Assembly (NCBI RefSeq): GCF_008271465.1
Contig: NZ_VMDU01000002.1
Span: 62,001 to 126,000 of the forward strand
Length of the DNA stretch: 64,000 bases
Source: Tabrizicola flagellatus
GTDB lineage: Bacteria > Pseudomonadota > Alphaproteobacteria > Rhodobacterales > Rhodobacteraceae
Direction of reading: 5' to 3'
Shown here: positions 7,142-57,243 of the stretch, in pieces
Position numbering within the stretch: the first letter of the stretch is position 1
Layout: each line of letters starts with the position of its first letter
Translations under genes and position numbers: made by a program
The notes under the pieces: generated by a model
The model's input: the letters and a program-made list of their open reading frames with translations, nothing else
What the model was told of the DNA's origin: nothing
Databases searched by the model: none

Positions 7142-7194
7142 GTATCTACCTCTGGTATATACGTCCGAAAAGTGTAGTTACACGATGTGTATAC
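7142..7194. promoter_or_regulatory. Cluster of GTATATAC-type palindromes in a divergent promoter region
   Basis: Four related sites lie in 53 bp: GTATCTAC (7142), GTATATAC (7155), GTGTAGTTACAC (7172, two 5-bp arms) and GTATAC (7189). They sit between the start of the DUF2157-hslU operon and the BrnA-like antitoxin gene. Antitoxins of this type usually repress their own promoter through such short palindromes. The same octamers recur throughout the window. Confidence 0.6.
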
Positions 7195-7267
7195 CTTCAG
7201 ACAGGCTTGCAAGAGCCTGAAAAAGAAGAATAACAGAATTGCAGTTGGCGTTCGTGGGAGTGCGTGA

Positions 7268-7558
7268 ATGTTGGAAGAAGGCCCGAAGCGGTTGAGCATC
7301 GCCGAGAAGCGAGCGCTGAACGGCACCCTGGTGCTCGGCACCGGCAGCCAGGTCGAGGACCGGCCGGACGAAATCCTGGGCGACGCCCGCTGGACCGATA
7401 CCGTCGTTCCCGAACAGGCGCGCAAGAAGCTGATCTCCCTTCGGGTTGATCCGGCGGTCCTGGAGTTCTTCAAGGCGCAAGGGCCCGGCTACCAGACCCG
7501 GATGAACGCCGTCCTCCAGGCCTACATGCAGGTCAAGAAGGAGATGGGCCAGGGCTGA
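7268..7558 (+). CDS. Orphan BrnA-like antitoxin (ribbon-helix-helix)
   Basis: The 96-residue product ends in a segment typical of BrnA/DUF4415 antitoxins: [19 protein letters not shown] followed by [14 protein letters not shown], i.e. a ribbon-helix-helix DNA-binding fold. In BrnTA systems the toxin BrnT is encoded immediately upstream and BrnA represses the promoter. No BrnT-sized ORF lies within 140 bp upstream or downstream here, so this is an orphan. It is transcribed against its neighbours, its 3' end overlaps the hslV stop by 26 bp, and it separates hslV from hslU. Its promoter carries four GTATATAC-like palindromes. Confidence 0.75.
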
Positions 7559-8117
7559 CCGGCTGGCCGATCCGTTCGACGGTCAGGTTGCCGTTGGTAT
7601 AGACGCAGATGTCGGCCGCGATGGCCATGGCGCGACGCGCGATCTCCTCGGCGGAAAGGTCGGTCGCCATCAGGCCGCGGGCTGCGGCCAGCGCGAAGTT
7701 CCCGCCCGAACCGATGGCGGCCACGTCGTGTTCCGGCTCCAGCACGTCGCCCGCGCCGGTGATGACGTAAAGCGCACTGCCATCGGTCACGATCAGCATG
7801 GCCTCGAGGTTGCGCAGATACTTGTCCATGCGCCAGTCCTTCGCCAGATCGACGCAGGCACGGGCCAGCTGACCGGGGGCGGCCTCGAGCTTCTTTTCCA
7901 GCCGTTCCAGAAGCGTGAAGGCATCCGCGGTCGATCCGGCGAAGCCGGCCACCACGTCGTGCCCCCCGGGAGACAGGCGGCGCACCTTCCGGGCAGTGCC
8001 CTTGATTACGGTCTGACCCAGCGAGACCTGGCCGTCGCCGGCAACGACGACCTCTCCGCCGCGGCGGACCGCAAGGATCGTGGTTCCGTGCCAGCCCGGG
8101 AACTTTTCGTCCGCCAT
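7533..8117 (-). CDS. hslV: HslV, peptidase subunit of the HslVU protease
   Basis: HslV is a proteasome-like N-terminal-threonine peptidase that works with HslU. The 194-residue product begins [21 protein letters not shown]; removal of the first 11 residues would expose Thr12 as nucleophile. The family landmarks [39 protein letters not shown] and [17 protein letters not shown] are all present. It lies downstream of rpsO on the same strand, with a terminator between them. The last 26 bp overlap the convergent orphan antitoxin gene. Confidence 0.96.
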
Positions 8118-8175
8118 CTCGCCCTCCGTTTGTCCCTATATGGCGGCGACGACCGCCGGGCTCAAGTCAAACGAA

Positions 8176-8204
8176 AACGCCCGCGCTGTGGGGGCGCGGG
8201 CGTT
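8176..8204 (-). terminator. Intrinsic terminator of rpsO
   Basis: An 11-bp perfect stem (8176-8186 with 8194-8204, AACGCCCGCGC type) with a 7-nt loop is followed on the minus strand by TTTTCGTTTG. It begins about 20 nt after the rpsO stop codon. Confidence 0.85.
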
Positions 8205-8224
8205 CCTTGCAATCCCGGGTCGGA

Positions 8225-8494
8225 TCAGCGGCGCAGGCCGAGGCGGGTGATCAGCGAGGTGTACCGCGCTTCGTCCGTCCTCTTCAGGTAGTCCAGCAGC
8301 TTGCGGCGCTGGGCGACGAGCATGAGAAGGCCACGACGCGAATGGTTGTCGTTCTTGTGGCTCTTGAAATGCTCGGTCAGGGTGGCGATCCGCGAGGACA
8401 GGATGGCGACCTGGACTTCGGGCGAACCGGTGTCGCCTTCCCTGGTCGCGTATTCCTTGATGACGCGGGCCTTCTCTTCAACGGTGATCGACAT
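8225..8494 (-). CDS. rpsO: 30S ribosomal protein S15
   Basis: S15 binds the central domain of 16S rRNA and is a primary assembly protein of the small subunit. The 89-residue product has the normal length and the full signature, including [36 protein letters not shown] and [10 protein letters not shown]. The start is preceded by AGGAGA. It is not followed by pnp as in many bacteria; hslV is the next gene on this strand, after a strong terminator. Confidence 0.98.
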
Positions 8495-8802
8495 CGTGGT
8501 CTCCTGTGAAAGGGGTTATGGCGCAAGCCGGGATGTCGTCCAGCAGGGCCCTTGGAGGTTCCGCCACGGCGGCGGATGCGGGCGTATAGGCGGATTCGCC
8601 TGCGATGGGAAGGGGTTTCGCGGTGAGTTCGGCAACCGCCCTTTAACCAAGACGTCAGACTCCGGGTGTGAATCTTCGGGAAAGACTTGGGCAGCCGCGC
8701 GCATTGTGGTAAGGTCAGGGTGATTTTCCATTCGTTAACAAAAGGTTAACGGCTGGATCTGATGTAAAGTGGTCCTGCCGGCCCAGACAGGGAGTTGACA
8801 AG
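8495..8802. other. Intergenic region between rpsO and the RTX gene
   Basis: About 308 bp of divergent promoter space. I see no coding region or RNA gene. The only clear structure is a pair of GTTAAC palindromes at 8734-8739 and 8745-8750, 11 bp (about one helical turn) apart, upstream of the RTX gene. Confidence 0.5.
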
Positions 8803-9819
8803 TTGCTGGCACTGCTCGGTTTGTTTGGGGTCCTTGCGGCCGGCCTTGCGGCCGATGCCATGCTGTTCGGCCGTGGTGAAGCTGCCGGCGCCGAGGACGG
8901 GTCGGCGGAGGACGGGGCCCCGCAAGATGATGTGCCCGAAGGCGACAGCGAGATTCTGGACCTCGTGATCCTCGAGCCCGGCGTCCCTACGTCGGACGAC
9001 CTTCCCGACGCGGGGGACGATCCGTTGACGGTCGATGGCACCGACAATGCCGATGCCCTGTCTGGCGGGTCTGGTGACGATGCCATTCATGCCGACGGCG
9101 GAGACGACGTGATCGACGGTCGAGCCGGAGATGACTGGATCGACGCCGGCGGCGGAAATGACGCGGTCTGGGCCGGCGACGGCGCCGACACGATCCTCGG
9201 TGGCGACGGGACCGACAGTGTTCAGGGGCAAGCGGGGGACGATGCGCTGATTGGCGGGTCGGGTCACGACAGTCTTGCCGGTTGCGAGGGCAATGACAGC
9301 GTGGAGGGCGGCGCCGGTCGTGACACCCTGATCGGCGGAGAGGGCGACGACTGGATTGATGGCGGCGAGGACGAAGACTGGCTGGTCGGCAGTGCTGGCA
9401 ACGATGCGCTGGACGGGGGCCAGGGCAGCGACATTCTTGACGGCGGCAGCGGTGACGACCGGATTTCGGGGGTCGAGACGGGGCCGGGCGGGCAGGAGCT
9501 GGACTACATCAACGGCGGTGCGGGCAGCGACCGGCTGATCCTCGGCGCCGGAGACATCGCCACAGGTGGCAGCGGTGCAGACGAATTCGTTCTGGACAAG
9601 TGGCTTCCGGAGACCTCGGTCACCCGGATCATGGATTATGACCCGGCCGAGGACACCCTGGTCATCATCTATGATCCCGAGGTACATGCCGATCCGGTCG
9701 TGACGGTTGGCCCGAACGATGGCGGTCAGGGCCAGGCAGTCTATCTTGACGGTGCGAAGATTGCCGTTGTCAGTGGAGCGCCGTTCGGGGTGTCGGACAT
9801 CAGGCTGATGGCTTCCTGA
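8803..9819 (+). CDS. RTX-type calcium-binding repeat protein
   Basis: The 338-residue product has an N-terminal hydrophobic helix (about residues 1-22, LLGLFGVLAAGLAADAML), an acidic linker, and then about sixteen glycine/aspartate nonapeptides (GGSGDD, GGAGRDTLIGGEGDD and similar) from about residue 80 to 225, typical of calcium-bound RTX beta-rolls. A C-terminal beta-rich segment with RIMDYDPAEDTLVIIYDP resembles the tail of Rhodobacterales RTX proteins. The first codon appears to be TTG at 8803; no ATG or GTG gives the hydrophobic N-terminus. It is probably membrane-anchored or exported. No adjacent type I secretion genes are seen. The substrate or role is unknown. Confidence 0.75.
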   Translation: MLALLGLFGVLAAGLAADAMLFGRGEAAGAEDGSAEDGAPQDDVPEGDSEILDLVILEPGVPTSDDLPDAGDDPLTVDGTDNADALSGGSGDDAIHADGGDDVIDGRAGDDWIDAGGGNDAVWAGDGADTILGGDGTDSVQGQAGDDALIGGSGHDSLAGCEGNDSVEGGAGRDTLIGGEGDDWIDGGEDEDWLVGSAGNDALDGGQGSDILDGGSGDDRISGVETGPGGQELDYINGGAGSDRLILGAGDIATGGSGADEFVLDKWLPETSVTRIMDYDPAEDTLVIIYDPEVHADPVVTVGPNDGGQGQAVYLDGAKIAVVSGAPFGVSDIRLMAS

Positions 9820-9822
9820 CGC

Positions 9823-10329
9823 TTACCACGGCAGCGGCCTCTGGTCATACCCGACATACAGGGGGTGGCGGGGCTGGTTCTGACCGGTCAGCCCAAGATG
9901 GAAGAGTTGCGCCCCGGCCTGTCGCAACATTGCGCTCACCGCTGCGCCTCGGCCCAGGTGAAGGCCGTGGTTTCCCCAGGCGCAGAGGACCAGGTCGGCC
10001 CAGGGAACGCTGTCCACAATGGCAGAGTCATTGTCCGGCCCGACCGGATCGGGCTGGGCGCGCATCTCTCTTGGATCGGTGGCGCGGAAGGCGAAGATGT
10101 TGGTCACCCGGAAGGACCCGAAACCCAGCGCCACGGCGCGGCGCTGGCATCGCTCGACCGTCGGGTCGTTCTGGATCTCGGTCGCGGTCGAGGGATTGAG
10201 CATGACGAAAAGCGCTCGTGGCCCCGATCCCCAGGTCCGCGTCAGCAGATAGCGATACCGTCCGCAGTCGGAATAGACCGCCTCGGACGCGGTGCCGTTT
10301 GCCGAATGCGTGCGCGAAATCAATCCCAT
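9823..10329 (-). CDS. DUF1643 family protein
   Basis: The 168-residue cytoplasmic protein belongs to DUF1643, whose function is unknown. Its landmarks are CGRYRYLLTRTW, ALFVMLNPSTATEIQNDPTV, CQRRAVALGFGSFRVTNIFA and the C-terminal segment LFHLGLTGQNQPRHPLYV, all typical of the family. It converges with the RTX gene (3 bp between stops). The ATG at 10329 gives a family-length product. It stands alone. Confidence 0.8.
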   Translation of the reverse strand: MGLISRTHSANGTASEAVYSDCGRYRYLLTRTWGSGPRALFVMLNPSTATEIQNDPTVERCQRRAVALGFGSFRVTNIFAFRATDPREMRAQPDPVGPDNDSAIVDSVPWADLVLCAWGNHGLHLGRGAAVSAMLRQAGAQLFHLGLTGQNQPRHPLYVGYDQRPLPW

Positions 10330-10573
10330 ATCCCTCCCTGAGGCTACCCGACCCCATGTGGCAGCCGGCTTCCCGCACCGACCCGGCCGCTCCGGTCGGG
10401 ATCGGTCCGAGGGAAACCCCGCCCAGCTGTGGGGTCAAGGCCCCTCTCGCCGGGACGGTTCGGTTTCGTGCCGATCAGCCGGCAGCGACGCAAGACCGAC
10501 CCGAAATCCGCTTGTCGCGAGTCCGCCGCGCCGACTAGATAAGTGCCGAGCGGCCCGAACCCGAGAGCGCCAG

Positions 10574-11098
10574 GTGTCAGATCTGATCATTTCCGTGTTT
10601 CGCAGTGAGGCTGCTGCCTTTGCGGCTGGCGAACAGCTTGCGGCCTTGCAGCAGGCGGCCGGAACCGAGCCGGAGGACATCGTCGTGGTATCTCGCAGCG
10701 CGGCAGGTCGCATCACCGTCAACCAGTCGATCGACCTTGCCAGCGGCGCACCCCTGGGCGGTGGTGGCTGGGGCGTGATGATCGGCCTGATGTTCCTGGA
10801 CGGACGCAAGCCGAAGCCCGAAAGCCAGGGGCTTGCGGCACAATTGGTGGCTGCCGGCCTGGACCGGACTTTTCTGGATGACGTCGTGCAGTCGCTGAAG
10901 AAGGGCGGAGCCGCTGTCGGGATGCGCGTTCGGCTTCTGGGCAAGGAAAGGGTCATGGCGAAACTGGACAGCCTGCAAGGGTCACCCCGGACCTACTGGA
11001 CCCGTCTTGATGCGCGGACCGAAGAGGCCTTGACCGACATCATGGGCCAGATTCCGCAGGCTGCGCTGAGCCGGCCCCACGATCTGCCCGCAGACTGA
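10574..11098 (+). CDS. DUF1269-like protein
   Basis: The 174-residue product starts with GTG (VSDLIISVFRSEAAAFAAGE), a ferredoxin-like fold typical of DUF1269, and has a glycine-rich hydrophobic stretch (LGGGGWGVMIGLMFL, about residues 60-75) that may touch the membrane. The C-terminal half contains LKKGGAAVGMRVRLLG and helices. DUF1269 proteins are uncharacterised. The long in-frame extension upstream to 10292 overlaps the divergent DUF1643 start and is arginine-rich, so it was rejected. mtgA starts 48 bp downstream. Confidence 0.6.
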   Translation: MSDLIISVFRSEAAAFAAGEQLAALQQAAGTEPEDIVVVSRSAAGRITVNQSIDLASGAPLGGGGWGVMIGLMFLDGRKPKPESQGLAAQLVAAGLDRTFLDDVVQSLKKGGAAVGMRVRLLGKERVMAKLDSLQGSPRTYWTRLDARTEEALTDIMGQIPQAALSRPHDLPAD

Positions 11099-11146
11099 CA
11101 GAGTTACGGCTTGACGGGCGCGTCGTGCCTGCGGCCTTGTGGCGGA

Positions 11147-11914
11147 ATGAGCGACAAATCAGCAGACAGGACCGCGGCCAAGCCGCCCGCAAGCGCGCGG
11201 AAGCGGAGGGCTGCCGCAAAGGAGGCGCCGCCCGCGCGGCCGTCGGTGTTGCGACTTGGCCTGCGGTGGCTTGCCCGCGCCGGAGTCACCGTGGCGGGCT
11301 TCTACGCGGTTCTGATCCTGCTGTTCGCCTTTCTGCCGCCGCCGATCAATCTGTACCAACTGGGCGAGTCCTGGCGGTTGGGCGGGATCGAGAAGGACTG
11401 GGTCGGCTGGGACGAGATCGCCCCGGTGATGGGCAGGTCGGCGGTCGCGGCCGAAGACGCGAACTTCTGCAATCACTGGGGCTTCGACATGGCGGCCATC
11501 CGACAAGCCATCGAATCCGGCAGCAATCGCGGAGCCTCGACCATCAGCCAGCAGGTGACGAAGAACGTGTTCCTCTGGCATGGGCGCAGCTGGGTCCGCA
11601 AATCTCTGGAGGCGATCCTGACGCCCGTCGTCGAGCTGGCATGGTCCAAGCAGCGTATCCTGGAGGTCTATCTGAACGTTGCCGAGTTCGACGAAGGCGT
11701 GTTCGGCGTGCAGGCCGCGGCGCAGCACTATTTCGGTGTCGATGCCCGCGACCTGACCGCCCTGCAGGCCGCGCGGCTTGCTGCCGTCCTGCCGGACCCG
11801 AAAGGACGCAGCGCCTCCAAGCCGTCGACCTTTGTGCGCAGCCGGACACGGGCGATCATGTCGGGCGCCGAAACCATCGCCGCAGACGGCAGATCCGCCT
11901 GTTTCGAGGGCTGA
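11147..11914 (+). CDS. mtgA: Monofunctional peptidoglycan transglycosylase
   Basis: MtgA polymerises lipid II into glycan strands at the periplasmic face of the inner membrane. The 255-residue product has a basic N-terminus, one membrane anchor (about residues 45-66, AGVTVAGFYAVLILLFAFLP) and a GT51 domain. Within the domain are the catalytic glutamate motif VAAEDANFCNHWG (Glu103), GASTISQQVTKNVFLW, RKSLEAILTPVVELAWSKQR and EVYLNVAEFDEGVFG. No transpeptidase domain follows, so it is monofunctional. ATG 11147 after GGCGGA is preferred over the in-frame TTG at 11111. Confidence 0.95.
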   Translation: MSDKSADRTAAKPPASARKRRAAAKEAPPARPSVLRLGLRWLARAGVTVAGFYAVLILLFAFLPPPINLYQLGESWRLGGIEKDWVGWDEIAPVMGRSAVAAEDANFCNHWGFDMAAIRQAIESGSNRGASTISQQVTKNVFLWHGRSWVRKSLEAILTPVVELAWSKQRILEVYLNVAEFDEGVFGVQAAAQHYFGVDARDLTALQAARLAAVLPDPKGRSASKPSTFVRSRTRAIMSGAETIAADGRSACFEG

Positions 11915-11982
11915 TCCCGCGCGGGGATTGAATTCCGCCCCCCGGCGCGGCAATGAGGGGAAAGACCGGAGATCTCCGCCCG

Positions 11983-12660: not shown

Positions 12661-12720
12661 GGGCTGGCGTCGGCCGGGGGCCAGCCCCCGGACCCCCGGA
12701 GTATTTCGGAAAAGGGCAAG
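12660..12720 (+). repeat. GC hairpin plus GGAGTATTT repeat (copy 2) used as queG leader
   Basis: GGGGCTGG (12660-12667) pairs with CCAGCCCC (12681-12688), a hairpin right at the GST stop. It is followed by CGGAGTATTTCGGAAAAG plus GGCAAG (12697-12720). Three bases later comes the queG ATG, so the repeat supplies the ribosome-binding region. The same layout precedes the HDAC-like gene at 18357. Confidence 0.65.
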
Positions 12721-12723
12721 CCC

Positions 12724-14953: not shown

Positions 14954-14955
14954 GC

Positions 14956-14970: not shown

Positions 14971-15022
14971 AGTTCCCGTGGCAAGTCCTTTCAAGGGCTT
15001 GCCTGTCCGCGTTAACACTTCG

Positions 15023-31502: not shown

Positions 31503-32699
31503 CGCCGCCGCCCGTCCTGCCCAGCGGCCGGTGGCCCAGGCGGCGGTGAGGAGGTAGCCGCCGGTCGGGGCCTCCCAGTCCAGCATTTCCCCGGCGGCGA
31601 AGATCCCCGGGATGGCCTTCAGTTCGAGGTCGGGGGTGAGGGCGTCCCAGGCGATGCCACCCGCCACGCTGATCGCCTCGTCCAGCGGGCGGGGGCCTTG
31701 CAGCGGGATGGGCAGGTTCTTCAGGTGGGCGAAGGGCTCGGCGCGAGAGAACTCCATCACCAGGGCGATCCGGGTGGGGTCGAGGCCGAGCTTGCGCAAG
31801 CGGTTGGTGACGCTGTCGCCAGGTTTTATTTTCGACAGGCGGCGGGTGATCTCGTCCTGGCTGAGGTCGGGGAGGAGGTCGATGGCGAGTGTATATGCGT
31901 CGCGTAGATACTTGTATATACTGTAAATGCCGCCGCCCTCCAACCCCTTGGCGGAGATGACGAATTCTCCGCGCTGCTCGTCGAGCACTTCGTGCACTCC
32001 TCGCGGAGAGACGGTGCGAGGAGTGGATGAAATCCTCGACGAGCAGACTCTGAGGGCGACGCCCTTGACGGGCTGGCCGAAGAACGGGGTCATGTGGGGG
32101 GACCAGTCCACGCGGAAGCCCATGTTGGCGGGTTGCCAGTTGGAGACCTGCACGCCTTTCGCGCGCAGCCAGGGGACCCAGGCGCCGTCGGAACCGAGGC
32201 GGGACCAGCTGGCGCCGCCGAGGGCGAGGATCGTGACCCTGGGGGCAAGGGTTTGCTGGCCGGCGGGGGTGTCGAAGGTGAGGGCGCTGCCGTCGAACCC
32301 GGTCCAGCGCCAGCGGGTGCGGATCTCGACGCCTTGCGAGGTCAGGCGTTGCAGCCAGGCGCGGAGAAGGGGCGAGGCCTTCATCGCCACGGGGAAGACG
32401 CGGCCGGAGGAGCCTGTATATACAGCCTGGCCGAGGGCGCGGCACCAGGCCTGCACCTCCTTTGGGCCGAAGTCCTGCAGGATCGGTCGGAGATGGGGGC
32501 AGTCGTAGCGGGAGACGAAGGTCTCCCAATCCTCGTCCTTGGTGACGTTCAGGCCGGATTTCCCGGCCATCAGGAACTTGCGGGCGACGGAGGGTTTGGC
32601 CTCAATCACAACGACTTGTGCGCCGGACTTCACAAGTTCCTCGGCGGCCATCAGGCCGGCGGGGCCTGCGCCGATGACGAGGGCATCAAGTGGCGGCAT
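31488..32699 (-). CDS. HI0933-family flavoprotein (TIGR03862-like) with an in-frame palindromic insertion
   Basis: This is an FAD-dependent oxidoreductase of the HI0933/BaiN family, physiological substrate unknown. The 403-residue product has the dinucleotide fold ALVIGAGPAGLMAAEELVKS, RKFLMAGKSGLNVT, GSSGRVFPVAMKASPLLRAW, ITILALGGASWSRLGSDGAW-type residues and the C-terminal AGEMLDWEAPTGGYLLTAAW. Around residues 220-243 it carries an unusual Ser/Arg-rich stretch (SSRISSTPRTVSPRG) encoded by a 73-bp palindrome; homologues normally pass straight from the PVKGVAL strand to RGEFVISAKGLEGG. The following codons (31889-31930) are AT-rich with several GTATATAC-type octamers. It overlaps mscS by 14 bp. 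Confidence 0.85.
   Translation of the reverse strand: MPPLDALVIGAGPAGLMAAEELVKSGAQVVVIEAKPSVARKFLMAGKSGLNVTKDEDWETFVSRYDCPHLRPILQDFGPKEVQAWCRALGQAVYTGSSGRVFPVAMKASPLLRAWLQRLTSQGVEIRTRWRWTGFDGSALTFDTPAGQQTLAPRVTILALGGASWSRLGSDGAWVPWLRAKGVQVSNWQPANMGFRVDWSPHMTPFFGQPVKGVALRVCSSRISSTPRTVSPRGVHEVLDEQRGEFVISAKGLEGGGIYSIYKYLRDAYTLAIDLLPDLSQDEITRRLSKIKPGDSVTNRLRKLGLDPTRIALVMEFSRAEPFAHLKNLPIPLQGPRPLDEAISVAGGIAWDALTPDLELKAIPGIFAAGEMLDWEAPTGGYLLTAAWATGRWAGRAAASRLA
31891..31921. repeat. GTATATAC/GTAGATAC cluster inside the flavoprotein gene
   Basis: GTATAT (31891), GTAGATAC (31904) and GTATATAC (31914) lie within 31 bp. In the minus-strand frame they are read through codons AGT, ATA, CTA and ACA, which are otherwise rare in this DNA. 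Confidence 0.6.
31974..32046. repeat. Palindromic element inserted in a coding sequence
   Basis: Arms 31974-32004 and 32016-32046 (31 nt each) match as an inverted repeat around an 11-nt loop. The outer 12 bp (CTGCTCGTCGAG) and inner 10 bp (CACTCCTCGC) are perfect and the middle 9 bp diverged. It stays in frame in the HI0933-type gene, adding about 24 residues. It resembles protein-coding palindromic elements such as those of Rickettsia in concept; no second copy was seen in this window. Confidence 0.6.
32414..32425. repeat. CTGTATATACAG perfect 12-bp palindrome
   Basis: An intragenic copy of the iterated octamer, read on the minus strand as codons GTA TAT ACA (Val-Tyr-Thr) in the flavoprotein gene. 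Confidence 0.6.
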
Positions 32700-37245: not shown

Positions 37246-38589
37246 ATGACGCCCAACCTTGCCGACCTGAGCCATGCCCTTCTGGACGCCGCCCGCAAGG
37301 CCGGCGCCGATGCCGCCGACGCGCTGGCCGTGGCGGGCACGGCGGTGTCGATCGAGATCCGCAAGGGCGCGCTGGAGAAGGCGGAGCGCTCGGAAAATGT
37401 GGAGATCGGGCTGCGCGTGCTGATCGGGCAGCGGCAGGCCTGCGTATCGGCCTCCGACACCTCGGAGGCGACGATCCGGGCGCTGGCCGAACGGGCGGTC
37501 GCGATGGCGCGGGAAGCGCCGGAGGATGCGACGGTCGGGCTGGCCGACCCCGGTCAACTGGCGCAGGGCTGGGACGCGGCCGCGCTGGACCTGGCCGATC
37601 CGGCCGGAGAGCCGGGGGCGGCGGTGCTGGAGGCGCAGGCCCGGGCGGTCGAAGCGGCGGCGCTGGCGGCGAAGGGTATCACCCAGGTCGAGGCGGCGGC
37701 GAGCTACAGCCAGCGGGCGCTGCACCTGGCGGCGACGAACGGGTTTTCGGGCGGGTATGGGCGGACCTCGACCAGCCTGTCGGCGGTGGCCTTCACCGGA
37801 CAAGGCACCGAGATGCAGCGCGATTATGCCGGGGAGGGGCGTATATACGCATCCGACATGCCCTCGGCCGAGGAGATCGGGCGGCTGGCGGCAGAGCGGA
37901 CCGTGGCGCGGGTCGGGTCGGTGAAGCCGCGGACCGGGACCTATCCGGTGGTCTATGACGAACGGGTGGCGGCCTCGCTGGTCGGGCATCTGTTGTCGGC
38001 GATCAACGGAACCTCGATCGCGCGGGGGTCAAGCTGGGCGCGGGATCTCTTGGGCAAGCAGGTGCTGCCCAATGGTCTGTCGCTGATCGAGGACCCGCAT
38101 CGGGTGCGGATCGGGTCGTCCCGGCCGTTCGACGGTGAGGGGCTGGCGACCCGGCGGCGCGAGATCGTGGCCGACGGGGTGCTGACCGGCTGGGTGCTGG
38201 ACCTGGCGACGGGGCGGAAGCTGGGGATGCCGTCCACAGCCAATGCCTCGCGCGGGACTTCGGCGCCGCCGTCGCCCTCGACGACGAATATCGATCTGAC
38301 GCAAGGGGATTTCAGCCGCGCGGACCTCTTGAAGCAGATGGGAACGGGGCTCTTGGTGACTTCGATGATCGGGTCCACGATCAACCCGACGACGGGGGAT
38401 TATTCGCGCGGGGCGAGCGGGTTCTGGGTGGAGAACGGCGAGATCGCCTATCCGGTCCACGAATGCACCATCGCGGGGAACCTGCGCGACATGCTGCTGC
38501 GGATCATCCCGGCCAATGACGCGCGGCCGCATCTTTCGACGCGGGTGCCGTCGATCCTTGTGGACGGGATGACCCTTGCCGGCGCGTGA
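37246..38589 (+). CDS. pmbA: TldE/PmbA-type metalloprotease subunit
   Basis: PmbA (TldE) forms the TldD-TldE protease, which degrades unfolded peptides and matures some peptide antibiotics. The 447-residue product has the N-terminal VSIEIRKGALEKAERSENVE, TNGFSGGYGRTSTSLSAVAF and C-terminal GLLVTSMIGSTINPTTGDYS with RGASGFWVENGEIAYPVHE. TldE subunits lack the TldD HExxxH motif and none is seen here. ATG 37246 was chosen over 37207. A 12-bp palindrome GCGTATATACGC lies in the coding sequence. It overlaps the next gene by 14 bp. Confidence 0.93.
   Translation: MTPNLADLSHALLDAARKAGADAADALAVAGTAVSIEIRKGALEKAERSENVEIGLRVLIGQRQACVSASDTSEATIRALAERAVAMAREAPEDATVGLADPGQLAQGWDAAALDLADPAGEPGAAVLEAQARAVEAAALAAKGITQVEAAASYSQRALHLAATNGFSGGYGRTSTSLSAVAFTGQGTEMQRDYAGEGRIYASDMPSAEEIGRLAAERTVARVGSVKPRTGTYPVVYDERVAASLVGHLLSAINGTSIARGSSWARDLLGKQVLPNGLSLIEDPHRVRIGSSRPFDGEGLATRRREIVADGVLTGWVLDLATGRKLGMPSTANASRGTSAPPSPSTTNIDLTQGDFSRADLLKQMGTGLLVTSMIGSTINPTTGDYSRGASGFWVENGEIAYPVHECTIAGNLRDMLLRIIPANDARPHLSTRVPSILVDGMTLAGA
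37839..37850. repeat. GCGTATATACGC perfect 12-bp palindrome
   Basis: A copy of the iterated octamer in pmbA, read as CGT ATA TAC GCA (Arg-Ile-Tyr-Ala), using the rare Ile codon ATA. Confidence 0.6.
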
Positions 38590-39352
38590 CCTGGCCCTTC
38601 TGACCGAGGCCGCGCGCGAGGCGGGGCGGATCGCGCTGCGCTATTGGCGCAAGGACCCGAAGGTCTGGGACAAGGGCGGCGAGCACGGGCCGGTCAGCGA
38701 GGCGGACCTAGCGGTCAACGACATGCTGAAGGCGCGGCTGATGGACGCACGGCCGGATTATGGCTGGCTGTCCGAGGAGACGCCGGATTCCGCCGACCGG
38801 CTGGCTGTAGATACGGTGTTCATCCTGGACCCGATAGACGGCACGCGCGCCTTCATCGCGGGCGAGGAAACCTGGGCCCATTCGCTGGCCGTGGCGCACA
38901 AGGGCAAGGTGACGGCGGGGGTGGTGTATCTGCCGGCGCTGGATTGTATCTACACGGCGTCCGAGACCTCGGCCCCGATGAAGGACGGTCAGATGATCCG
39001 GGTCAGCGGGCGGGACCGGCTGGAAGGGGCCAACATCCTGACGACAAAGGCAAACATGGCGCCCGAGAAATGGCCCGGCGGGGTGCCGGAGATCATCCGC
39101 GGCTTCCGCGCCTCATTGGCTTACCGGATGTGCCTGGCGGCAGAGGGGAAGTTCGACGGGATGCTGACGTTGCGCGACGCCTGGGAATGGGACATCGCGG
39201 CCGGCGCCCTGATCGCAGAGCGGGCGGGGGCGGTGGTGACGGACCGGACGGGCGCTGCGCTGCGGTTCAACAGCCCCGCTGCGCAGGCGCGGGGGGTGCT
39301 GGCGCTGCCTTCCCGCCTGCATGCCGAGGCCTTGGCGCTGCTCAGGGGTTAG
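38576..39352 (+). CDS. Inositol monophosphatase-family protein (CysQ/HisN-like)
   Basis: This is a Mg-dependent phosphatase of 258 residues. It shows the family motifs GPVSEADLAVNDML, YGWLSEETPDS (metal glutamate), FILDPIDGTRAFI (the DPxDGT motif) and DAWEWDIAAGALIAERAG (the WDxAA motif). It may be a 3'(2'),5'-bisphosphate nucleotidase (CysQ) or a histidinol- or inositol-phosphatase; the sequence alone does not decide. The only start that covers the first helix is TTG 38576, overlapping the end of pmbA by 14 bp. Confidence 0.85.
   Translation: MPARDLALLTEAAREAGRIALRYWRKDPKVWDKGGEHGPVSEADLAVNDMLKARLMDARPDYGWLSEETPDSADRLAVDTVFILDPIDGTRAFIAGEETWAHSLAVAHKGKVTAGVVYLPALDCIYTASETSAPMKDGQMIRVSGRDRLEGANILTTKANMAPEKWPGGVPEIIRGFRASLAYRMCLAAEGKFDGMLTLRDAWEWDIAAGALIAERAGAVVTDRTGAALRFNSPAAQARGVLALPSRLHAEALALLRG
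38807..38953. repeat. GTAGATAC (38807) and GTATCTAC (38946) in the phosphatase gene
   Basis: Two near-palindromic octamers of the iterated family. The first is read as GTA GAT ACG (Val-Asp-Thr), the second as part of TGT ATC TAC ACG. Confidence 0.5.
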
Positions 39353-44723: not shown

Positions 44724-45494
44724 TCAAGGCGGAGGGGGTGCGGCAAGCAAGCTTTCGACCGCATCCAGCATCGCCCCGGCATCCGGTCGCGCGGCGATCA
44801 CCAGCCGGGACCTGGGGATATCCAGGCAGGCTTCGGCGACGGCGGCGCTCATCGCCGCGATCCGCAGGTCGGCGCGCGTGTCGGCGGGCATTGCAGCGCG
44901 GAACAATCGGGCGCTGCGGGGCGAGAACAAGGGCAGGATCACCGGGCCCTGTCGCCGCAGAAGCTGGGTCGCCTCGCCCTCAAGAGGAATGGCCTTCTGT
45001 AGATACACCTGTAAAGATACTGTCGAAAATCCGTTGTTTTGCAATTGGTTATCTACATCTCCTGATGTATCTACGCCGTGTAGATATAGAATTCTGCCAT
45101 CCGGCGGATCTTTCAGGATGGCGGCAATCAGGGCCTTTGCATCGCCGTCGGCGGACCGGGTCTCGAACCCGGCTGCGGCCGCGGCGGCTGCGGTGGAGCG
45201 GCCGACGCACCAGGCCAGCCGTGGCAAGCTTGCCCCCAGCCTGACCGCACCGGCCACGCCTTGCGCCGAAGTGAAGACGACGGCGGCAAAGCGGCCCTTT
45301 GGCACCGTGGGCGAGAGGTATTCCGGCGCCATGAGCGGAGCGATGACCGGCTGCACCCGGCTGTCGAACCGGGCGACCAGACGGGACGCGAAGGATTCGG
45401 CCTGATACCTGGGCCGGGTGACCAGCACAGGCACAGCCGAGACCGGGTCGCCGGAAAGATCGGGGGACGCATCGGATTGTCTCGCCATGCCCAT
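44724..45494 (-). CDS. hemD: Uroporphyrinogen-III synthase
   Basis: HemD cyclises hydroxymethylbilane to uroporphyrinogen III. This fast-diverging family is recognised from AVPVLVTRPRYQAESFASRL, VVFTSAQGVAGAVRLGAS, WCVGRSTAAAAAAAGFE, GRILYLHGVDTSGDVDNQL and ILPLFSPRSARLFRAAM, and from its neighbours (Mic60-like, hemY). The product has 256 residues from ATG 45494 (45488 is possible). Codons for residues about 130-167 are strikingly AT-rich (AGA, ATT, CTA, GTA, ACA, TTA), unlike the rest of the gene. It diverges from tsaD with only 39 bp between starts. Confidence 0.87.
   Translation of the reverse strand: MGMARQSDASPDLSGDPVSAVPVLVTRPRYQAESFASRLVARFDSRVQPVIAPLMAPEYLSPTVPKGRFAAVVFTSAQGVAGAVRLGASLPRLAWCVGRSTAAAAAAAGFETRSADGDAKALIAAILKDPPDGRILYLHGVDTSGDVDNQLQNNGFSTVSLQVYLQKAIPLEGEATQLLRRQGPVILPLFSPRSARLFRAAMPADTRADLRIAAMSAAVAEACLDIPRSRLVIAARPDAGAMLDAVESLLAAPPPP
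44999..45087. repeat. Cluster of GTAGATAC/GTATCTAC octamers in an AT-rich hemD patch
   Basis: GTAGATAC (44999), GTATCTAC (45067), GTAGATAT (45080) and the near miss TTATCTAC (45049) fall in about 90 bp of unusually AT-rich coding DNA, read on the minus strand through CTA, GTA and ACA codons. Confidence 0.6.
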
Positions 45495-47580: not shown

Positions 47581-47853
47581 ATGCGCTATGCCCTGATCTG
47601 TATCGACAAGCCGAACGCCCTGCAGACCCGGACCGAGAACCGGCAGGCGCATCTGGAGTATATACAGGCCACTGGCGTGGTCGAGCAGGCCGGCCCCTTC
47701 ATCGACGCCGCCGGCCAGATGTGCGGCAGCCTCATCATCCTGTCGGTCGGGTCCAAGGCCGAGGCCGATGCCTGGGCGGCGGGCGATCCCTATGCCAAGG
47801 CGGGCCTGTTCCAGTCGGTGATGGTGCAGGAATGGAAGCGGGTGGTCGGATGA
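47581..47853 (+). CDS. YciI-family protein
   Basis: The 90-residue ferredoxin-like YciI/YCII-domain protein (MRYALICIDKPNALQTRTEN, HLEYIQATGVVEQAGPFIDA, SKAEADAWAAGDPYAKAGLF) is of unclear biochemical role. AGGAA at 47571-47575 suits ATG 47581; ATG 47575 overlaps the gpsA stop and is the alternative. Tyr-Ile-Gln is coded TAT ATA CAG within a GTATATAC octamer (47658). The stop overlaps the EVE-domain gene by 4 bp. Confidence 0.85.
   Translation: MRYALICIDKPNALQTRTENRQAHLEYIQATGVVEQAGPFIDAAGQMCGSLIILSVGSKAEADAWAAGDPYAKAGLFQSVMVQEWKRVVG
47658..47665. repeat. GTATATAC octamer in the YciI gene
   Basis: Read in the frame GAG TAT ATA CAG (Glu-Tyr-Ile-Gln), using the rare ATA codon. Confidence 0.5.
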
Positions 47854-49184: not shown

Positions 49185-49187
49185 AAG

Positions 49188-50195: not shown

Positions 50196-50210
50196 CCCTT
50201 TCATCTGTCC

Positions 50211-50250: not shown

Positions 50251-50277
50251 TCCGCCCGCCAGTCACAGGCGCCGCCG

Positions 50278-52666: not shown

Positions 52667-52977
52667 TCCGGGGACCGATCTCCCGCGCCGGACGCCCCCG
52701 CGCAACATTCGGCGGCCAGGTGCTCGATCAGGGCCCGCATGACAGGGTAGTTGGCATGACAGATCAGCGAGGTCCCGACGCGCTGTTGCCGGATCAGGCC
52801 GACCTGCACCAGCGCCCGGCAATGATGCGACAGGGTCGATCCCGGGATGCCGAGCTGCTCCTGGATCTGACCCATGGTCTGCCCGGGTTCGCCCGCCCGC
52901 ACGAGCAGCCGGTAAAGCCGAAGGCGGGTCGGGCTGCCCAGGGCTGCAAGACGCGCGGCGGCAAGGTTCGTATCCAT
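52663..52977 (-). CDS. ArsR-family metalloregulator
   Basis: This 104-residue winged-helix repressor (AARLAALGSPTRLRLYRLLV, GIPGSTLSHHCRALVQVGLI, GTSLICHANYPVMRALIEHL) has a C-terminal vicinal cysteine pair (AAECCAGA), resembling arsenite-sensing ArsR proteins with C-terminal cysteines. It leads the two-gene operon with the MFS transporter. ATG 52977 (MDTNLAAARLAALG) is preferred over 53034, which would place the operator inside the gene. Confidence 0.88.
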   Translation of the reverse strand: MDTNLAAARLAALGSPTRLRLYRLLVRAGEPGQTMGQIQEQLGIPGSTLSHHCRALVQVGLIRQQRVGTSLICHANYPVMRALIEHLAAECCAGASGAGDRSPE

Positions 52978-52992
52978 GACCGCACCTAATTC

Positions 52993-53010
52993 GATATTTC
53001 CAGAAATATC
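52993..53010. promoter_or_regulatory. Probable ArsR operator
   Basis: GATATTTC-CA-GAAATATC is a perfect 8-bp-arm palindrome 16 bp upstream of the arsR-like ATG, in an otherwise GC-rich context. Confidence 0.7.
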
Positions 53011-53236
53011 AAAACAAATCTTGCGCCCGGTCATGGTAACGGATGTCCTTGTGTGGGCCCTGTGCTAGGCTGCTGTGGTAACCGGATGGCACGAAGATCG
53101 TGCCCTGTGTGTAAGCGTATGGATTTCAATCAATTGACATCCGCCTGTGCCAGTTTCCGGTGAAGGTGCGCCTATCCAGACAAATCCGTTGCTCTGCCGG
53201 GCCTGTGCTGTATTCGTGTCTCGATCAGGGGGCCAG

Positions 53237-53938
53237 ATGACGACCAGTGACGACCTGCAAGAGCGCAAGCGCGGGACCGGAGCCCGCCTGGTCTATGAAA
53301 GGCTGCGCGAGGAGATACTGGATCTCGTGCTGCAACCCGGAGAGCCGGTGGACGAGATCGGACTGGCCGAGCGGCTGTCGATGTCGCGCACGCCCATTCG
53401 CGAGGCTCTGGTCCGGCTGGCCTCCGAGGGGCTGGTGACGCTTCTGCCCAACCGCTCGACGGTCGTGTCGCAGATCGACTTTCCGAACCTGCATCACTTC
53501 TTCGACGCCCTGACCCTGATGTACCGCATGACGACCCGACTTGCGGCCGAGTTCCATGACGATGCCGACCTTGCCGCCATTCGCGGGCGGCAGCACGACT
53601 TTGCGCGGGCGGTCCTGTCCGGAGACACGGCCGGGATGATCCGGCTGAACCGCGATTTCCACATCGCCATCGCCGAGGCGGGTCGCAATCCCTATTACCT
53701 GCAACTCTTCGTGCGCCTTCTTGATGAAGGTCGCCGGATCCTGCGCCTCTACTACTATCCGGCCTTCGAGCCGCGCCTGCCGCATCCGTATATACAAGAG
53801 CACGAGGCGATCATCGCCGCCCTTGCCGCCCGCGATGTAGATACATGCGATCGCCTGGCCAAGGACCACGCCGACAAGATCGTGCAGCAGATCCAGGCGA
53901 TGATCGCGCGCGATCTGCGGCGCGATGTTCCGCTGTGA
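53237..53938 (+). CDS. GntR-family (FCD) transcription regulator
   Basis: This 233-residue regulator has an N-terminal winged helix (GARLVYERLREEILDLVLQP, GLAERLSMSRTPIREALVRL, GLVTLLPNRSTVVSQID) and a C-terminal all-helical FCD effector domain with metal-type histidines (RDFHIAIAEAGRNPYYLQL, HPYIQEHEAIIAALAARD). It lies directly upstream of hydroxyproline catabolic genes and probably represses them; a TTGTCGACAA palindrome follows the gene. The start is ATG 53237. The coding sequence contains GTATATAC (53788) and GTAGATAC (53837). Confidence 0.88.
   Translation: MTTSDDLQERKRGTGARLVYERLREEILDLVLQPGEPVDEIGLAERLSMSRTPIREALVRLASEGLVTLLPNRSTVVSQIDFPNLHHFFDALTLMYRMTTRLAAEFHDDADLAAIRGRQHDFARAVLSGDTAGMIRLNRDFHIAIAEAGRNPYYLQLFVRLLDEGRRILRLYYYPAFEPRLPHPYIQEHEAIIAALAARDVDTCDRLAKDHADKIVQQIQAMIARDLRRDVPL
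53788..53844. repeat. GTATATAC (53788) and GTAGATAC (53837) in the gntR gene
   Basis: Read as CCG TAT ATA CAA (Pro-Tyr-Ile-Gln) and GAT GTA GAT ACA TGC (Asp-Val-Asp-Thr-Cys), again using rare ATA, GTA and ACA codons. Confidence 0.55.
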
Positions 53939-53943
53939 GATTC

Positions 53944-53953
53944 TTGTCGACAA
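53944..53953. promoter_or_regulatory. Probable GntR operator before the hydroxyproline genes
   Basis: TTGTCGACAA is a 10-bp perfect palindrome six bases after the gntR stop and about 70 bp before the HPC deaminase ATG. It fits the xTGTnnACAx pattern of FadR-type GntR regulators. Confidence 0.55.
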
Positions 53954-54020
53954 ATAAAATACAAAGCCTATGCTGAATGTCACGTCGGCGGGAATCATCC
54001 GCAAAACGGAGGAGTGGCGC

Positions 54021-54980
54021 ATGAACTCGGAGATCTTCTCGGGCACCATCCCGGCCCTGATGACCCCCTGCAAGGCGGACCGCACGCCTGACTTCGACAC
54101 CCTGGTCGCCAAGGCGAAAGAACTTGTCAGCCTCGGCATGTCGGCGGTCGTCTACTGCGGCTCCATGGGCGACTGGCCGCTTCTGACCACCGAGCAGCGG
54201 ATGGAGGGGGTGGAACGGCTGGTGAGGGCGGGCATCAAGGTCGTCGTCGGCACCGGCGCGGTGAACACGCAGACCGCCGCGGCGATCGCGGCTCATGCCC
54301 AGAAGGTGGGCGCGCATGGGCTGATGGTCATCCCGAGACTGTTGTCGCGTGGCACCGTGGTTGCCGCCCAGCGCGCGCATTTCAAGGCGGTGCTGTCCGC
54401 CGCGCCAGAGCTGCCCGCAGTGATCTACAACAGTCCGTATTACGGTTATTCGACCAAGGCCGACCTCTTCTTCCAGATCCGGGCCGAGCATCCGAACCTC
54501 GTCGGCTTCAAGGAATTCGGCGGCTATGAAGACCTGTCCTATGCCGCCAATGCGATCACCGGGGCCTCACCGGACCTGAAGCTGATGATCGGTGTCGATA
54601 CGGCGGTCTACCACGGCTATGTCAACTGCAACGCCGACGGGGCGATCACCGGGATCGGCAATGTCCTCCCGCGCGAGGTGCTGCATCTGGTCTCGCTGTG
54701 CCGCGCCGCCCAGAAGGGCGATGCCGAGGCGCGGCGGCTGGCCTATGAACTCGATCAGGCGATGCAGGTCCTGTCCGAGGTGGACGCGGGCCCGGACCTG
54801 GTGCTGTTCTTCAAGCACATGATGGTCCTGCGCGGCGAGACGGCGTATCTACACCACTTCAACGAGGGCGATGAACTGTCGGCCAGCCAGAAGGGCTTCA
54901 TCGAGGCGCAACTGAAGATGTTCGACGCCTGGTATGCCGATTGGGCCAAGCAACCGGAGGCGCGGAAATACGCCGCCTGA
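54021..54980 (+). CDS. Dihydrodipicolinate synthase-family protein, probable HPC deaminase
   Basis: The class I aldolase-fold enzyme has 319 residues. The Schiff-base lysine is Lys164 (LVGFKEFGGYEDL) and the catalytic tyrosine Tyr140 (YNSPYYGYSTKADLF). With the neighbouring oxidase and epimerase it most likely deaminates cis-4-hydroxy-pyrroline-2-carboxylate to alpha-ketoglutarate semialdehyde. A strong ribosome-binding site (GGAGG) precedes ATG 54021. The next gene starts 1 bp after its stop. The usual follow-on semialdehyde dehydrogenase and the transporter are not in the window. Confidence 0.85.
   Translation: MNSEIFSGTIPALMTPCKADRTPDFDTLVAKAKELVSLGMSAVVYCGSMGDWPLLTTEQRMEGVERLVRAGIKVVVGTGAVNTQTAAAIAAHAQKVGAHGLMVIPRLLSRGTVVAAQRAHFKAVLSAAPELPAVIYNSPYYGYSTKADLFFQIRAEHPNLVGFKEFGGYEDLSYAANAITGASPDLKLMIGVDTAVYHGYVNCNADGAITGIGNVLPREVLHLVSLCRAAQKGDAEARRLAYELDQAMQVLSEVDAGPDLVLFFKHMMVLRGETAYLHHFNEGDELSASQKGFIEAQLKMFDAWYADWAKQPEARKYAA
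54845..54852. repeat. GTATCTAC octamer in the deaminase gene
   Basis: Read as GCG TAT CTA CAC (Ala-Tyr-Leu-His), using the rare CTA codon. Confidence 0.5.
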
Positions 54981-54981
54981 C

Positions 54982-56211
54982 ATGAAGGTCACCGTCATCG
55001 GGGCCGGGGTCATCGGCCTGTCTGCCGCGCTGATGGCGCAGGCGCGGGGTCTGGCGGTCACGGTCGTCGACCGGGAAGGCCCCGCCGCAGGCGCCTCGGC
55101 CGGAAATGCCGGGGCCTTTGCCTTCACCGACATCCTGCCGCTGGCCTCGCCCGGCATCCTGCGGAAGGCGCCGAAATGGCTGCTGGATCCCCTCGGCCCA
55201 CTGACCATCCCGCCCGCCTATGCGTTGCGGATCGCCCCGTGGCTGTATCGCTTCTGGCGGGCCTGTTCGCCCCGGGCCGTCGCGGCCTCGACCTCTGCCC
55301 AGACCGCGCTGATGGACCTGAGCCGCGCCGAGCTGGAGCCGTTCCTCGTGTCCACCGGCACCTTGCCGATGCTGCGCAAGGACGGCAACCTGCAGGTCTA
55401 CGAGAGCGAGGCGGAGTTCCGCGCCTCGCTGCCCGGCTGGGAGGCGCGGACTGCCCACGGGATCGAGTTCCGGCACATGGGACCGGAGGAGATGGCTGCG
55501 CTGCAACCGGGCCTCTCGCCGCGTTTCATCAAGGGCACCTTCACCCCCGGCTGGTGGTCCATCGCCGACCCGAAGCTGTATGTACAGGCTCTGGCCGAGC
55601 GATTCCGCGCCCAGGGCGGGACGATCCTGCGGGCCGAGGTCACAGGTTTGGCGCCTCAGGGTGAGGGCGTGTCGATACAGACCACGGACGAGCCGATGAG
55701 CGCCGACAAGGTCGTCCTTGCCGCCGGGGCCTTCTCGCACCGGATCGCCGCCACGCTGGGCGAGCGCATCCCGCTGGAGACGGAACGCGGCTACAACACC
55801 ACCCTGCCGCCCGAGGCGCTGGATCTGCGCTGCCAGATCACCTTCGGCGGTCACGGCTTTGTCGTCTCGCGCCTGTCCACGGGTATCCGGGTGGGCGGCG
55901 CTGTGGAACTGGGCGGGCTGTCGCTGCCGCCGAACTACAGGCGGTCCGAGGCCATGCTGCGGAAGGCGAAGGCCTTTCTGCCGGGTCTGAACACAGAAGG
56001 CGGCGTGCAGTGGATGGGCTTTCGGCCGTCGCTGCCAGACAGTCTGCCGGCCATCGGGCGGTCAAGGGCCTCGCCCAACGTCGTCCATGCCTTCGGCCAC
56101 GGCCACCTGGGCCTGACCCAAAGCGCCGGGACCGCGCGGCTGGTGGCCGACCTGTTGACCGACAGATCGCCCGCGATCAACCTGACCCCGTTCTCTCCAC
56201 ACCGTTTCTAG
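54982..56211 (+). CDS. FAD-dependent D-hydroxyproline oxidase/dehydrogenase
   Basis: The DAO-family flavoprotein has 409 residues with the dinucleotide fold VTVIGAGVIGLSAALMAQAR, GASAGNAGAFAF, a substrate domain (PGWWSIADPKLYVQALAERF) and a C-terminal FGHGHLGLTQSAGTARLVAD. It should oxidise cis-4-hydroxy-D-proline to the pyrroline carboxylate used by the upstream deaminase, with electrons going to the respiratory chain. It is separated from the deaminase by 1 bp and from the epimerase by 30 bp. The coding sequence contains the near-palindrome CTGTATGTACAG (55576). Confidence 0.87.
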   Translation: MKVTVIGAGVIGLSAALMAQARGLAVTVVDREGPAAGASAGNAGAFAFTDILPLASPGILRKAPKWLLDPLGPLTIPPAYALRIAPWLYRFWRACSPRAVAASTSAQTALMDLSRAELEPFLVSTGTLPMLRKDGNLQVYESEAEFRASLPGWEARTAHGIEFRHMGPEEMAALQPGLSPRFIKGTFTPGWWSIADPKLYVQALAERFRAQGGTILRAEVTGLAPQGEGVSIQTTDEPMSADKVVLAAGAFSHRIAATLGERIPLETERGYNTTLPPEALDLRCQITFGGHGFVVSRLSTGIRVGGAVELGGLSLPPNYRRSEAMLRKAKAFLPGLNTEGGVQWMGFRPSLPDSLPAIGRSRASPNVVHAFGHGHLGLTQSAGTARLVADLLTDRSPAINLTPFSPHRF

Positions 56212-56241
56212 AAGCGGGCCTGCGCCCGCGGAGGTTCCAAA

Positions 56242-57243
56242 ATGGCCGTATATACGTTCTCCTGCCTCGACGGGCACACCTGCGGCAACCCGGTCCGGCT
56301 GGTCTCGGGCGGCGGCCCCCGGTTGGAAGGCGCGACGATGCTGGAACGCCGGGCGCATTTCCTGCGGGACTACGACTGGATCCGCACTGGCCTGATGTAT
56401 GAGCCGCGCGGGCACGACATGATGTCGGGCTCGATCCTCTATCCGCCGACGCGGGCGGATTGCGACGTGGGGGTGCTGTTCATCGAGACCTCGGGCTGCC
56501 TGCCGATGTGCGGGCATGGGCTGATCGGGACGGTGACGATGGGGCTGGAGAACGGGCTCATCACCCCGCGCGAGCCGGGGCGGCTGGCGGTGGATGCTCC
56601 GGCGGGACGCGTTGAGGTTTCGTATATACAGGACGGGCGGTTCGTCGAGGAAGTGCGGCTGACCAATGTGCCGGGTTTCCTTTATGCTGAGGGACTTACG
56701 GCCGAGGTGGAGGGTCTGGGCGAGGTCGTGGTGGACGTGGCCTATGGCGGCAACTTCTACGCCATCGTCGAGCCGCAGAAGGCCTTCCGCGACATGGCAG
56801 ACCATACGGCGGGGGAGCTGGTGGGGTGGTCGCCGAAGCTGAGGGCCGCGCTGAATGCGAAGTATGAGTTCGTGCATCCCGAGCATCCGGCGATCCGGGG
56901 GCTGAGCCATATCCTGTGGACGGGCAAGCCCACGGTGCCGGGGGCCCATGCGCGTAACGCCGTGTTTTATGGGGAAAAAGCGATTGACCGCAGCCCCTGC
57001 GGAACGGGGACCTCGGCCCGGATGGCGCAGCTGGCGGCGAAGGGGAAGCTGTCGGTGGGGGACGTGTTCCACCATGAGAGCATCATCGGGTCGATCTTCA
57101 AGGGGCGGGTCGAGGCGGCGGCCACCGTTGCCGGGAGGGACGCGATTGTCCCCTCCATCGCCGGCTGGGCGCGGCAGACGGGGATCAACACGATCTTCAT
57201 CGATGACCGTGACCCGTTTGCGCATGGGTTCGTGGTGAAGTGA
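56242..57243 (+). CDS. 4-hydroxyproline 2-epimerase (proline racemase family)
   Basis: The enzyme converts trans-4-hydroxy-L-proline to cis-4-hydroxy-D-proline, the first step of the bacterial pathway. The 333-residue product has both catalytic cysteines, Cys90 (CLPMCGHGLIG) and Cys253 (RSPCGTGTSARMAQL), which distinguishes it from the dehydratase branch of the family. The start MAVYTFSCLDGHTCGNPVR is typical. GTATATAC octamers lie at codons 3-5 (56248) and at 56622. The gene ends 1 bp from the uvrC stop. Confidence 0.92.
   Translation: MAVYTFSCLDGHTCGNPVRLVSGGGPRLEGATMLERRAHFLRDYDWIRTGLMYEPRGHDMMSGSILYPPTRADCDVGVLFIETSGCLPMCGHGLIGTVTMGLENGLITPREPGRLAVDAPAGRVEVSYIQDGRFVEEVRLTNVPGFLYAEGLTAEVEGLGEVVVDVAYGGNFYAIVEPQKAFRDMADHTAGELVGWSPKLRAALNAKYEFVHPEHPAIRGLSHILWTGKPTVPGAHARNAVFYGEKAIDRSPCGTGTSARMAQLAAKGKLSVGDVFHHESIIGSIFKGRVEAAATVAGRDAIVPSIAGWARQTGINTIFIDDRDPFAHGFVVK
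56248..56255. repeat. GTATATAC octamer at the epimerase start
   Basis: Codons 3-5 read GTA TAT ACG (Val-Tyr-Thr), immediately after ATG GCC. Confidence 0.5.
56622..56629. repeat. GTATATAC octamer in the epimerase gene
   Basis: Read as TCG TAT ATA CAG (Ser-Tyr-Ile-Gln); the third Tyr-Ile-Gln encoded with ATA in this window. Confidence 0.5.

Follow-up and report, generated by a model that had tools for sequence, protein, structure and literature searches.

Proteins that mark domains of the bacterial chromosome share, to our knowledge, no common ancestor, and their provenance is not clear. One of them, MatP, has a ribbon-helix-helix part, and proteins of the BrnA antitoxin type, which are ribbon-helix-helix proteins as well, regulate their own promoters. 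In Caulobacter crescentus, the MerR-family protein ZapT is reported to occupy 10 positions in chromatin immunoprecipitation (ChIP), with no consensus motif (PMC7188993). In Myxococcus xanthus, CdbA is reported to have 569 ChIP peaks genome-wide, a direct-repeat motif and control by cyclic di-GMP (PMC7156744). Here we describe an iterated word and a BrnA-type gene in a 64,000-nucleotide stretch of Tabrizicola flagellatus (contig NZ_VMDU01000002.1; hereafter the window). We consider it probable that the antitoxin-derived protein binds YGTAKMTACR sites and organises the chromosome domains around the origin and the terminus. At the sequence level, this reading builds on the co-occurrence of gene and sites, the position of the operator, the absence of the toxin, the regional clustering of sites and their conservation.

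An iterated word in the window and the protein encoded beside it

A sequence-only reading of the window had reported eight copies of GTATATAC and eight of GTAGATAC or GTATCTAC, and all 16 coordinates proved correct, as did the 12-bp palindromes at 32414 and 37839. In dinucleotide shuffles GTATATAC was expected 0.00 times and the whole pattern GTAKMTAC 0.19 times, and the observed number was reached in 0 of 100 shuffles. Under an order-2 Markov model, no 8-mer in the window is more strongly over-represented than GTATATAC (16 occurrences on both strands vs 0.09 expected). Genes were called with a simple caller of our own; 14 of the 16 copies lie within them, in all three frames, as the claim that most copies are genic had it. 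These 14 compare with a mean of 0.85 and a maximum of 4 in 300 within-gene shuffles of synonymous codons, and the seven in-gene copies of GTATATAC taken alone compare with a mean of 0.37 and a maximum of 3. The suggestion that copies in genes are maintained as DNA sequence is thus upheld, both by the excess over the synonymous-codon null and by the conservation of copies in gene-bearing relatives described below.

The densest intergenic group of sites stands directly upstream of a gene for a 96-amino-acid protein (brnA, Table 1). Word starts in this putative operator are 13, 19 and 13 bp apart, that is, they form two pairs spaced 13 bp. The protein belongs to the PF14384 family (BrnA_antitoxin; E 2e-16, 60.6 bits vs a cut-off of 26.1). 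A search of the 32 genomes of our genus sample revealed orthologs in 14 others at 66-81% identity (E 5.8e-33 or better), followed after a gap by other BrnA-like proteins at E 1.2e-8 or worse. A copy of GTATATAC lies within 260 bp upstream of brnA in 15 of 15 orthologs. Among these the basic N-terminal segment PKRLSxAxKRA does not vary, nor does almost all of the ribbon-helix-helix part. A profile search of the protein against solved structures gave no match up to E 10.

Word and gene occur together across the genus

For each genome the background was set by counting the reversed word. Across the 32 genomes the counts of GTATATAC are bimodal: every one of the 15 genomes with an ortholog of the 96-amino-acid protein holds 14-28 copies and every one of the 17 without it holds 0-12 (Fisher p 6e-8 with the cut at 12; Mann-Whitney p 7e-7, genomes being treated as independent and kinship ignored). 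About half the species of the genus have no copy, or no more than background. Only one gene-less genome exceeds eight copies, namely G010, in which 12 copies (control 0) were found but no ortholog, in an assembly that is 59% complete; another, G020, has eight copies vs eight of the control. In a tree of 21 of the 32 genomes (midpoint rooting, node supports 0.40 to 1.00), the gene-less G025, G001, G006, G002 and G005 are nested among gene-bearing genomes, and gene and sites have therefore been gained or lost together several times. Among genomes of other genera (244 of 246 family genomes, one each), none held at least 12 copies of GTATATAC exceeding the reversed-word control, counts and not clustering being compared.

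The earlier idea that the copies are sites for a DNA-binding protein looks right in light of this co-occurrence, the word upstream of the gene and the conservation of sites. We have little doubt that the sites YGTAKMTACR (GTATATAC, GTAGATAC, GTATCTAC) would be found physically bound by the brnA product. Canonical parS words occur in 30 of the 32 genomes and ParB is conserved, irrespective of GTATATAC; with parS words and ParB canonical, a variant of parS bound by ParB was ruled out as the identity of the word. The possibility that an isolated copy on C18 serves as promoter of a binder gene was likewise rejected, the copy sitting inside a gene.

Sites cluster beside the origin and around the terminus

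The window genome (G000) measures 3.62 Mb in 42 contigs, and the window corresponds to C2:62001-126000. Of its 35 copies, 26 fall within C2:60.9-118.6 kb and C1:181.6-341.0 kb, two stretches that add up to 217 kb (6% of the genome). The word is therefore regionally clustered, and the genome-wide motif that the sequence-only reading had expected was not borne out. That reading had also held that genome-wide counts near expectation would speak against the motif; this applies to GTAGATAC alone (18 copies vs 40 of the reversed-word control) and not to GTATATAC (17 vs 2). The same regional confinement is seen in G019 and in G009, where 15 of 28 copies of GTATATAC lie in the 65 kb after parS, 10 in 167 kb of another contig and 3 are scattered. 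The origin cluster of G009 is one-sided: the 309 kb before parS contain a single copy and the 68 kb after it contain 15. The larger cluster is the one beside parS, not that of the terminus. In the two contig stretches of G000, 26 of 31 sites are in genes and 5 are intergenic, vs a coding fraction of 0.92.

We refer to the clusters as origin-side and terminus because of the adjacency of parS, the opposition of mfd and parS in G004 and the extremes of GC skew. The first origin-side site starts 3.4 kb past a canonical parS word (C2:57444), which ParA- and ParB-type genes adjoin, and mfd (PF03461 etc.) lies inside the second cluster. G004 is without the motif and was used as a map only, being a nearly one-contig genome; its 4.19-Mb main contig places mfd at 0.057 Mb and parS at 2.219 Mb, near-opposite positions if the contig is the circular chromosome. 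Cumulative GC skew, computed within the contig stretches read, is lowest at C2:39 kb and peaks at C1:323 kb.

A genome of another genus, G316, which was outside the 246-genome draw, carries seven copies of GTATATAC vs two of the control. One is upstream of brnA, three more are within 65 kb around parS words and two are in genes that align to C1:302.7-303.8 kb of G000, in the terminus cluster, where G000 itself has no copy. The two genomes thus use the same macro-positions and different sites, in small numbers. The remaining copy, GGTATATACC at C13:43027, is intergenic and matches C2:17663 of G000 with flanks 73% identical; these flanks are unlike those of other sites, and the pair is perhaps the operator of another regulator.

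Sites are conserved where the protein is encoded

A lack of conservation of the copies in close relatives had been named as an outcome that would refute the motif. At orthologous positions the word was kept in 54 of 79 cells from 11 gene-bearing genomes, and in none of 11 cells from gene-less genomes, of which 12 were tried and 10 gave an aligned site; in other genera it stood at 0 of 22 cells (20 loci, 29 tried). Compared like for like at position 60869, it was present in 5 of 10 gene-bearing vs 0 of 10 gene-less genomes. Sites were identical to the window genome in 42 of 66 cases, vs 34% for AT-rich 8-mers taken from these alignments (p 8e-7, which is nominal since cells are non-independent). 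Moreover, GTATATAC and GTATCTAC interchange at orthologous positions. Genome G016 has 21 copies genome-wide and none in the stretch analysed, and 6 of 20 dense-region stretches are little informative as synteny differs or contigs end.

The brnA locus lacks a toxin gene

The locus of brnA is fixed beside an hslV-type protease gene. In the eight gene-less genomes whose analysed stretch includes the locus (G002, G004, G005, G006, G012, G021, G023 and G025; the stretches from G001 and G011 were without it), hslV is separated from the next gene by 15 bp or less, or overlaps it, with no brnA in between, in all eight instances. In gene-bearing genomes brnA and its upstream region occupy this interval, which measures about 470 bp in the window genome. 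No BrnT-like match was found in any of the 15 ortholog loci of about 3.3 kb, and PF04365 (BrnT) has no match in the window genome, which therefore lacks the adjacent brnT of a BrnT-BrnA system. BrnT is absent from 11 of the 15 gene-bearing genomes altogether, and the remainder carry it on a different contig from this brnA.

A profile search detected relatives of BrnA at E 1e-8 or better in 78 of 394 family genomes, and among loci outside the genus we inspected the ten best (L175-L184). Nine of these, L176-L184 from nine other genera, have a BrnT gene beside brnA (PF04365 in 9/9), with hslV inside the 3.2 kb examined in eight of the nine. One of the three core words stands upstream of brnTA in six (L178-L183), and words are spaced 12-13 bp upstream in four loci, or five if the imperfect partner in L176 is counted. 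In L182 (G111) the brnT-brnA pair beside hslV is a tandem duplicate, and in each copy a separate GTATATAC precedes brnT by about 100 bp. At the tenth locus, L175 from G316, brnA is an orphan that shares the N-terminal segment; BrnT is missing, hslV is adjacent and a GTATATAC/GTAGATAC pair spaced 13 bp lies upstream of brnA. Of the plasmid relatives in the 15 rows listed, none exceeds 43% identity, and the top ones are mostly beside an annotated BrnT.

The simplest history has toxin loss first and the spread of sites afterwards. Whether a toxin-antitoxin module was domesticated in place, so that the toxin was lost, the antitoxin became a chromosome-domain marker and its operator word was written into genes around origin and terminus, several relatives having since lost both, is in our estimate evenly balanced.

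Weighing the explanations

The mechanism we propose is as follows. The protein would descend from the antitoxin BrnA of a brnT-brnA pair such as other Rhodobacteraceae still carry at the locus; with the toxin gone, the antitoxin would retain its own operator and with it autoregulation. About two dozen further sites would have been selectively kept, in a region beside parS, no more than about 80 kb from the origin, and in another around the terminus. Dimers or tetramers on scattered in-gene sites may then act like MatP or CdbA, compacting or positioning the domains of origin and terminus through bridges between sites or through a further partner to which the sites are tethered. We lean slightly towards the view that selection favours such a role at the scale of the chromosome, and not local regulation or titration; that the protein works by bridging or tethering is put forward tentatively. 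A MipZ-like ATPase gene (by reading of the sequence) is present at C2:181821-182630 in G000 and is a possible partner.

Several observations weigh against this proposal. Some copies are lost in gene-bearing genomes (G024 retains 8 of 16), and single sites must therefore be dispensable. Ten of the 11 gene-less cells represent one site in the hemW region and 20 of the 22 other-genus cells one site, and in the gene-less genomes of the genus no ortholog of most of the dense region was found. Nine of the 35 copies in G000 lie outside both stretches, and GTAGATAC is not enriched genome-wide, since its reversed-word control is the more frequent. Upstream of brnTA, three of the nine loci have looser words only: L176 a GTAGCTAC variant, L177 and L184 nothing but GTAATTAC or GTACATAC. 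A search for dif with E. coli-type arms gave nothing convincing (best 16 of 22 letters), and the terminus assignment therefore rests on skew and synteny. Finally, a single-sequence structure model of the protein, computed with no alignment, had a mean predicted local distance difference test score (pLDDT) of 45.8 and was unusable.

If the protein simply regulated transcription locally, with the sites as its operators, the site upstream of brnA would fit autoregulation and the 5 intergenic sites of 31 would find a use; yet the 26 genic sites are what the coding fraction predicts, promoters are not preferred, and copies cluster by chromosome position and not by gene function. Domain organisation or positioning is favoured over local regulation because sites follow chromosome position, not promoters, and we regard local regulation as unlikely. 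Titration, in which the clusters would soak up the autoregulated protein and the unbound amount would track the state of replication, is a serious rival to domain organisation. A comparable device is datA, the titration locus for DnaA, and the autoregulatory operator together with sites at both ends of the replication programme suits such a role. However, there is no known target that responds to the free level of the protein, and many sites are conserved individually, beyond the needs of bulk titration; we judge it the likeliest of the four rivals, at rather low probability.

A second centromere-like partition system would pair a centromere-binding protein like ParG or omega with an ATPase of the ParA kind. 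The ribbon-helix-helix family, the invariant basic N-terminal segment, the origin-side cluster and the ParA and ParB genes nearby are all compatible with it, but no dedicated ParA gene adjoins brnA, the canonical parS and ParB are intact and a terminus cluster is unexpected, so that we think it improbable, marginally more so than local regulation. The sequence-only reading had likened the word to a HIP1-type or uptake-type motif or to sites for a methylase, and restriction may be considered with the last of these; the word is indeed a short palindrome strongly over-represented in the window. The HIP1 and uptake readings fail because the word is confined to two regions and, in about half the species of the genus, is missing or no commoner than background; a methylase finds no support. 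Confinement to 6% of the genome has its counterparts in G009 and G019, the genomes of 244 other genera showed no comparable excess, and the word follows the brnA gene; a motif of this type is very improbable. Domain organisation by the brnA product remains the explanation we prefer.

Features of the window

Coordinates are collected in Table 1. The 44995-45095 interval is an AT-rich 100-bp stretch within a GC-rich minus-strand gene (hemD by reading), and it looks like an insertion tolerated by the encoded protein. A DnaA-box-like reading of the GTATCTAC copies at 44999-45090 was dropped once the word was seen to track brnA. In G000 C2:1-206000 further 8-mers are strongly over-represented as well (order-2 Markov model); CGTAAAGC, for example, has 21 occurrences on both strands vs 0.89 expected, and 6 vs 0.31 in the window.

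Table 1. Word sites and genes at and around brnA, in window positions
Feature	Position	Strand	Remarks
hslU (by reading), AAA ATPase gene	4713..6011	-	PF07724, E 1e-32
Gene between hslV and hslU	6008..7066	-	no Pfam match; conserved in genus; directly after hslV in gene-less relatives
Putative operator	7142..7194		GTATCTAC 7142, GTATATAC 7155, looser GTAGTTAC 7174, GTGTATAC 7187; assigned from sequence
brnA, orphan BrnA-type ribbon-helix-helix protein, 96 amino acids	7268..7558	+	residues 49-87 (C-terminal) match PF14384
hslV-type protease gene	7533..8117	-	PF00227 Proteasome, E 3e-27; name HslV by reading; fixed neighbour of brnA
GTAGATAC 31904 + GTATATAC 31914	31904..31921		within gene; spacing 10 bp
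GTATATAC	32416..32423		12-bp palindrome CTGTATATACAG; same gene as 31904/31914 sites
GTATATAC	37841..37848		12-bp palindrome, in gene; retained in 5/5 aligned gene-bearing genomes
GTAGATAC	38807..38814		in gene
GTATCTAC	38946..38953		in gene; GTATATAC at that place in 4/5 aligned gene-bearing genomes
GTAGATAC 44999 + GTATCTAC 45067	44999..45074		AT-rich stretch in minus-strand gene; looser copies between and after
GTATATAC	47658..47665		contig 109658; in gene; kept in 4/5 gene-bearing, 0/1 gene-less, 0/20 other-genus loci
GTATATAC 53788 + GTAGATAC 53837	53788..53844		in gene
GTATCTAC	54845..54852		in gene
GTATATAC	56248..56255		gene start; kept in 4/4 aligned gene-bearing genomes
GTATATAC	56622..56629		same gene as 56248 site; kept in 3/4 aligned gene-bearing genomes

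Comparison with known systems

Among the matches listed in a search of open-licence literature, there was no BrnA protein in chromosome organisation and no GTATATAC word in Rhodobacteraceae. The reading offered here predicts the binding protein, the positions of its sites and the effects of deletion, and close relatives with and without the system form natural before-and-after pairs. The donor can be seen as well: in sister genera the corresponding locus holds a toxin-antitoxin operon whose operator region contains this core word. Type II BrnT-BrnA systems resemble this locus in their PF14384 family, in their position in other genera and in the core word upstream, and differ from it in that here there is no adjacent BrnT and many sites lie away from the operator.

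In working, MatP, ZapT and CdbA appear to be nearest, the comparison being one of mode of action. As with MatP/matS of enterobacteria, a small site-specific DNA-binding protein would act on a few dozen palindromes, mostly in genes, that mark a chromosome region, and as with matS the sites are far denser in clusters than elsewhere (in G009, 25 of 28 in 65 kb + 167 kb; in G000, 26 of 35 in 6%). In contrast to matS, the sites are not restricted to the terminus, there being an origin cluster too; the word is another one, and the 96-amino-acid antitoxin-derived protein is without the extra domains of the MatP type. ZapT shares terminus-proximal positions, mostly in open reading frames, and an alphaproteobacterial host, whereas a ribbon-helix-helix protein, a sharp palindrome and an origin cluster set the present system apart (PMC7188993). 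CdbA is likewise a small ribbon-helix-helix protein and influences how the chromosome is organised while affecting transcription little; in contrast to its genome-wide peaks, we find about 35 palindromes in two regions (PMC7156744). If our reading is true, one protein holds both ends of the replication programme, in an origin-plus-terminus arrangement, while the known examples compared here are terminus-only or genome-wide.

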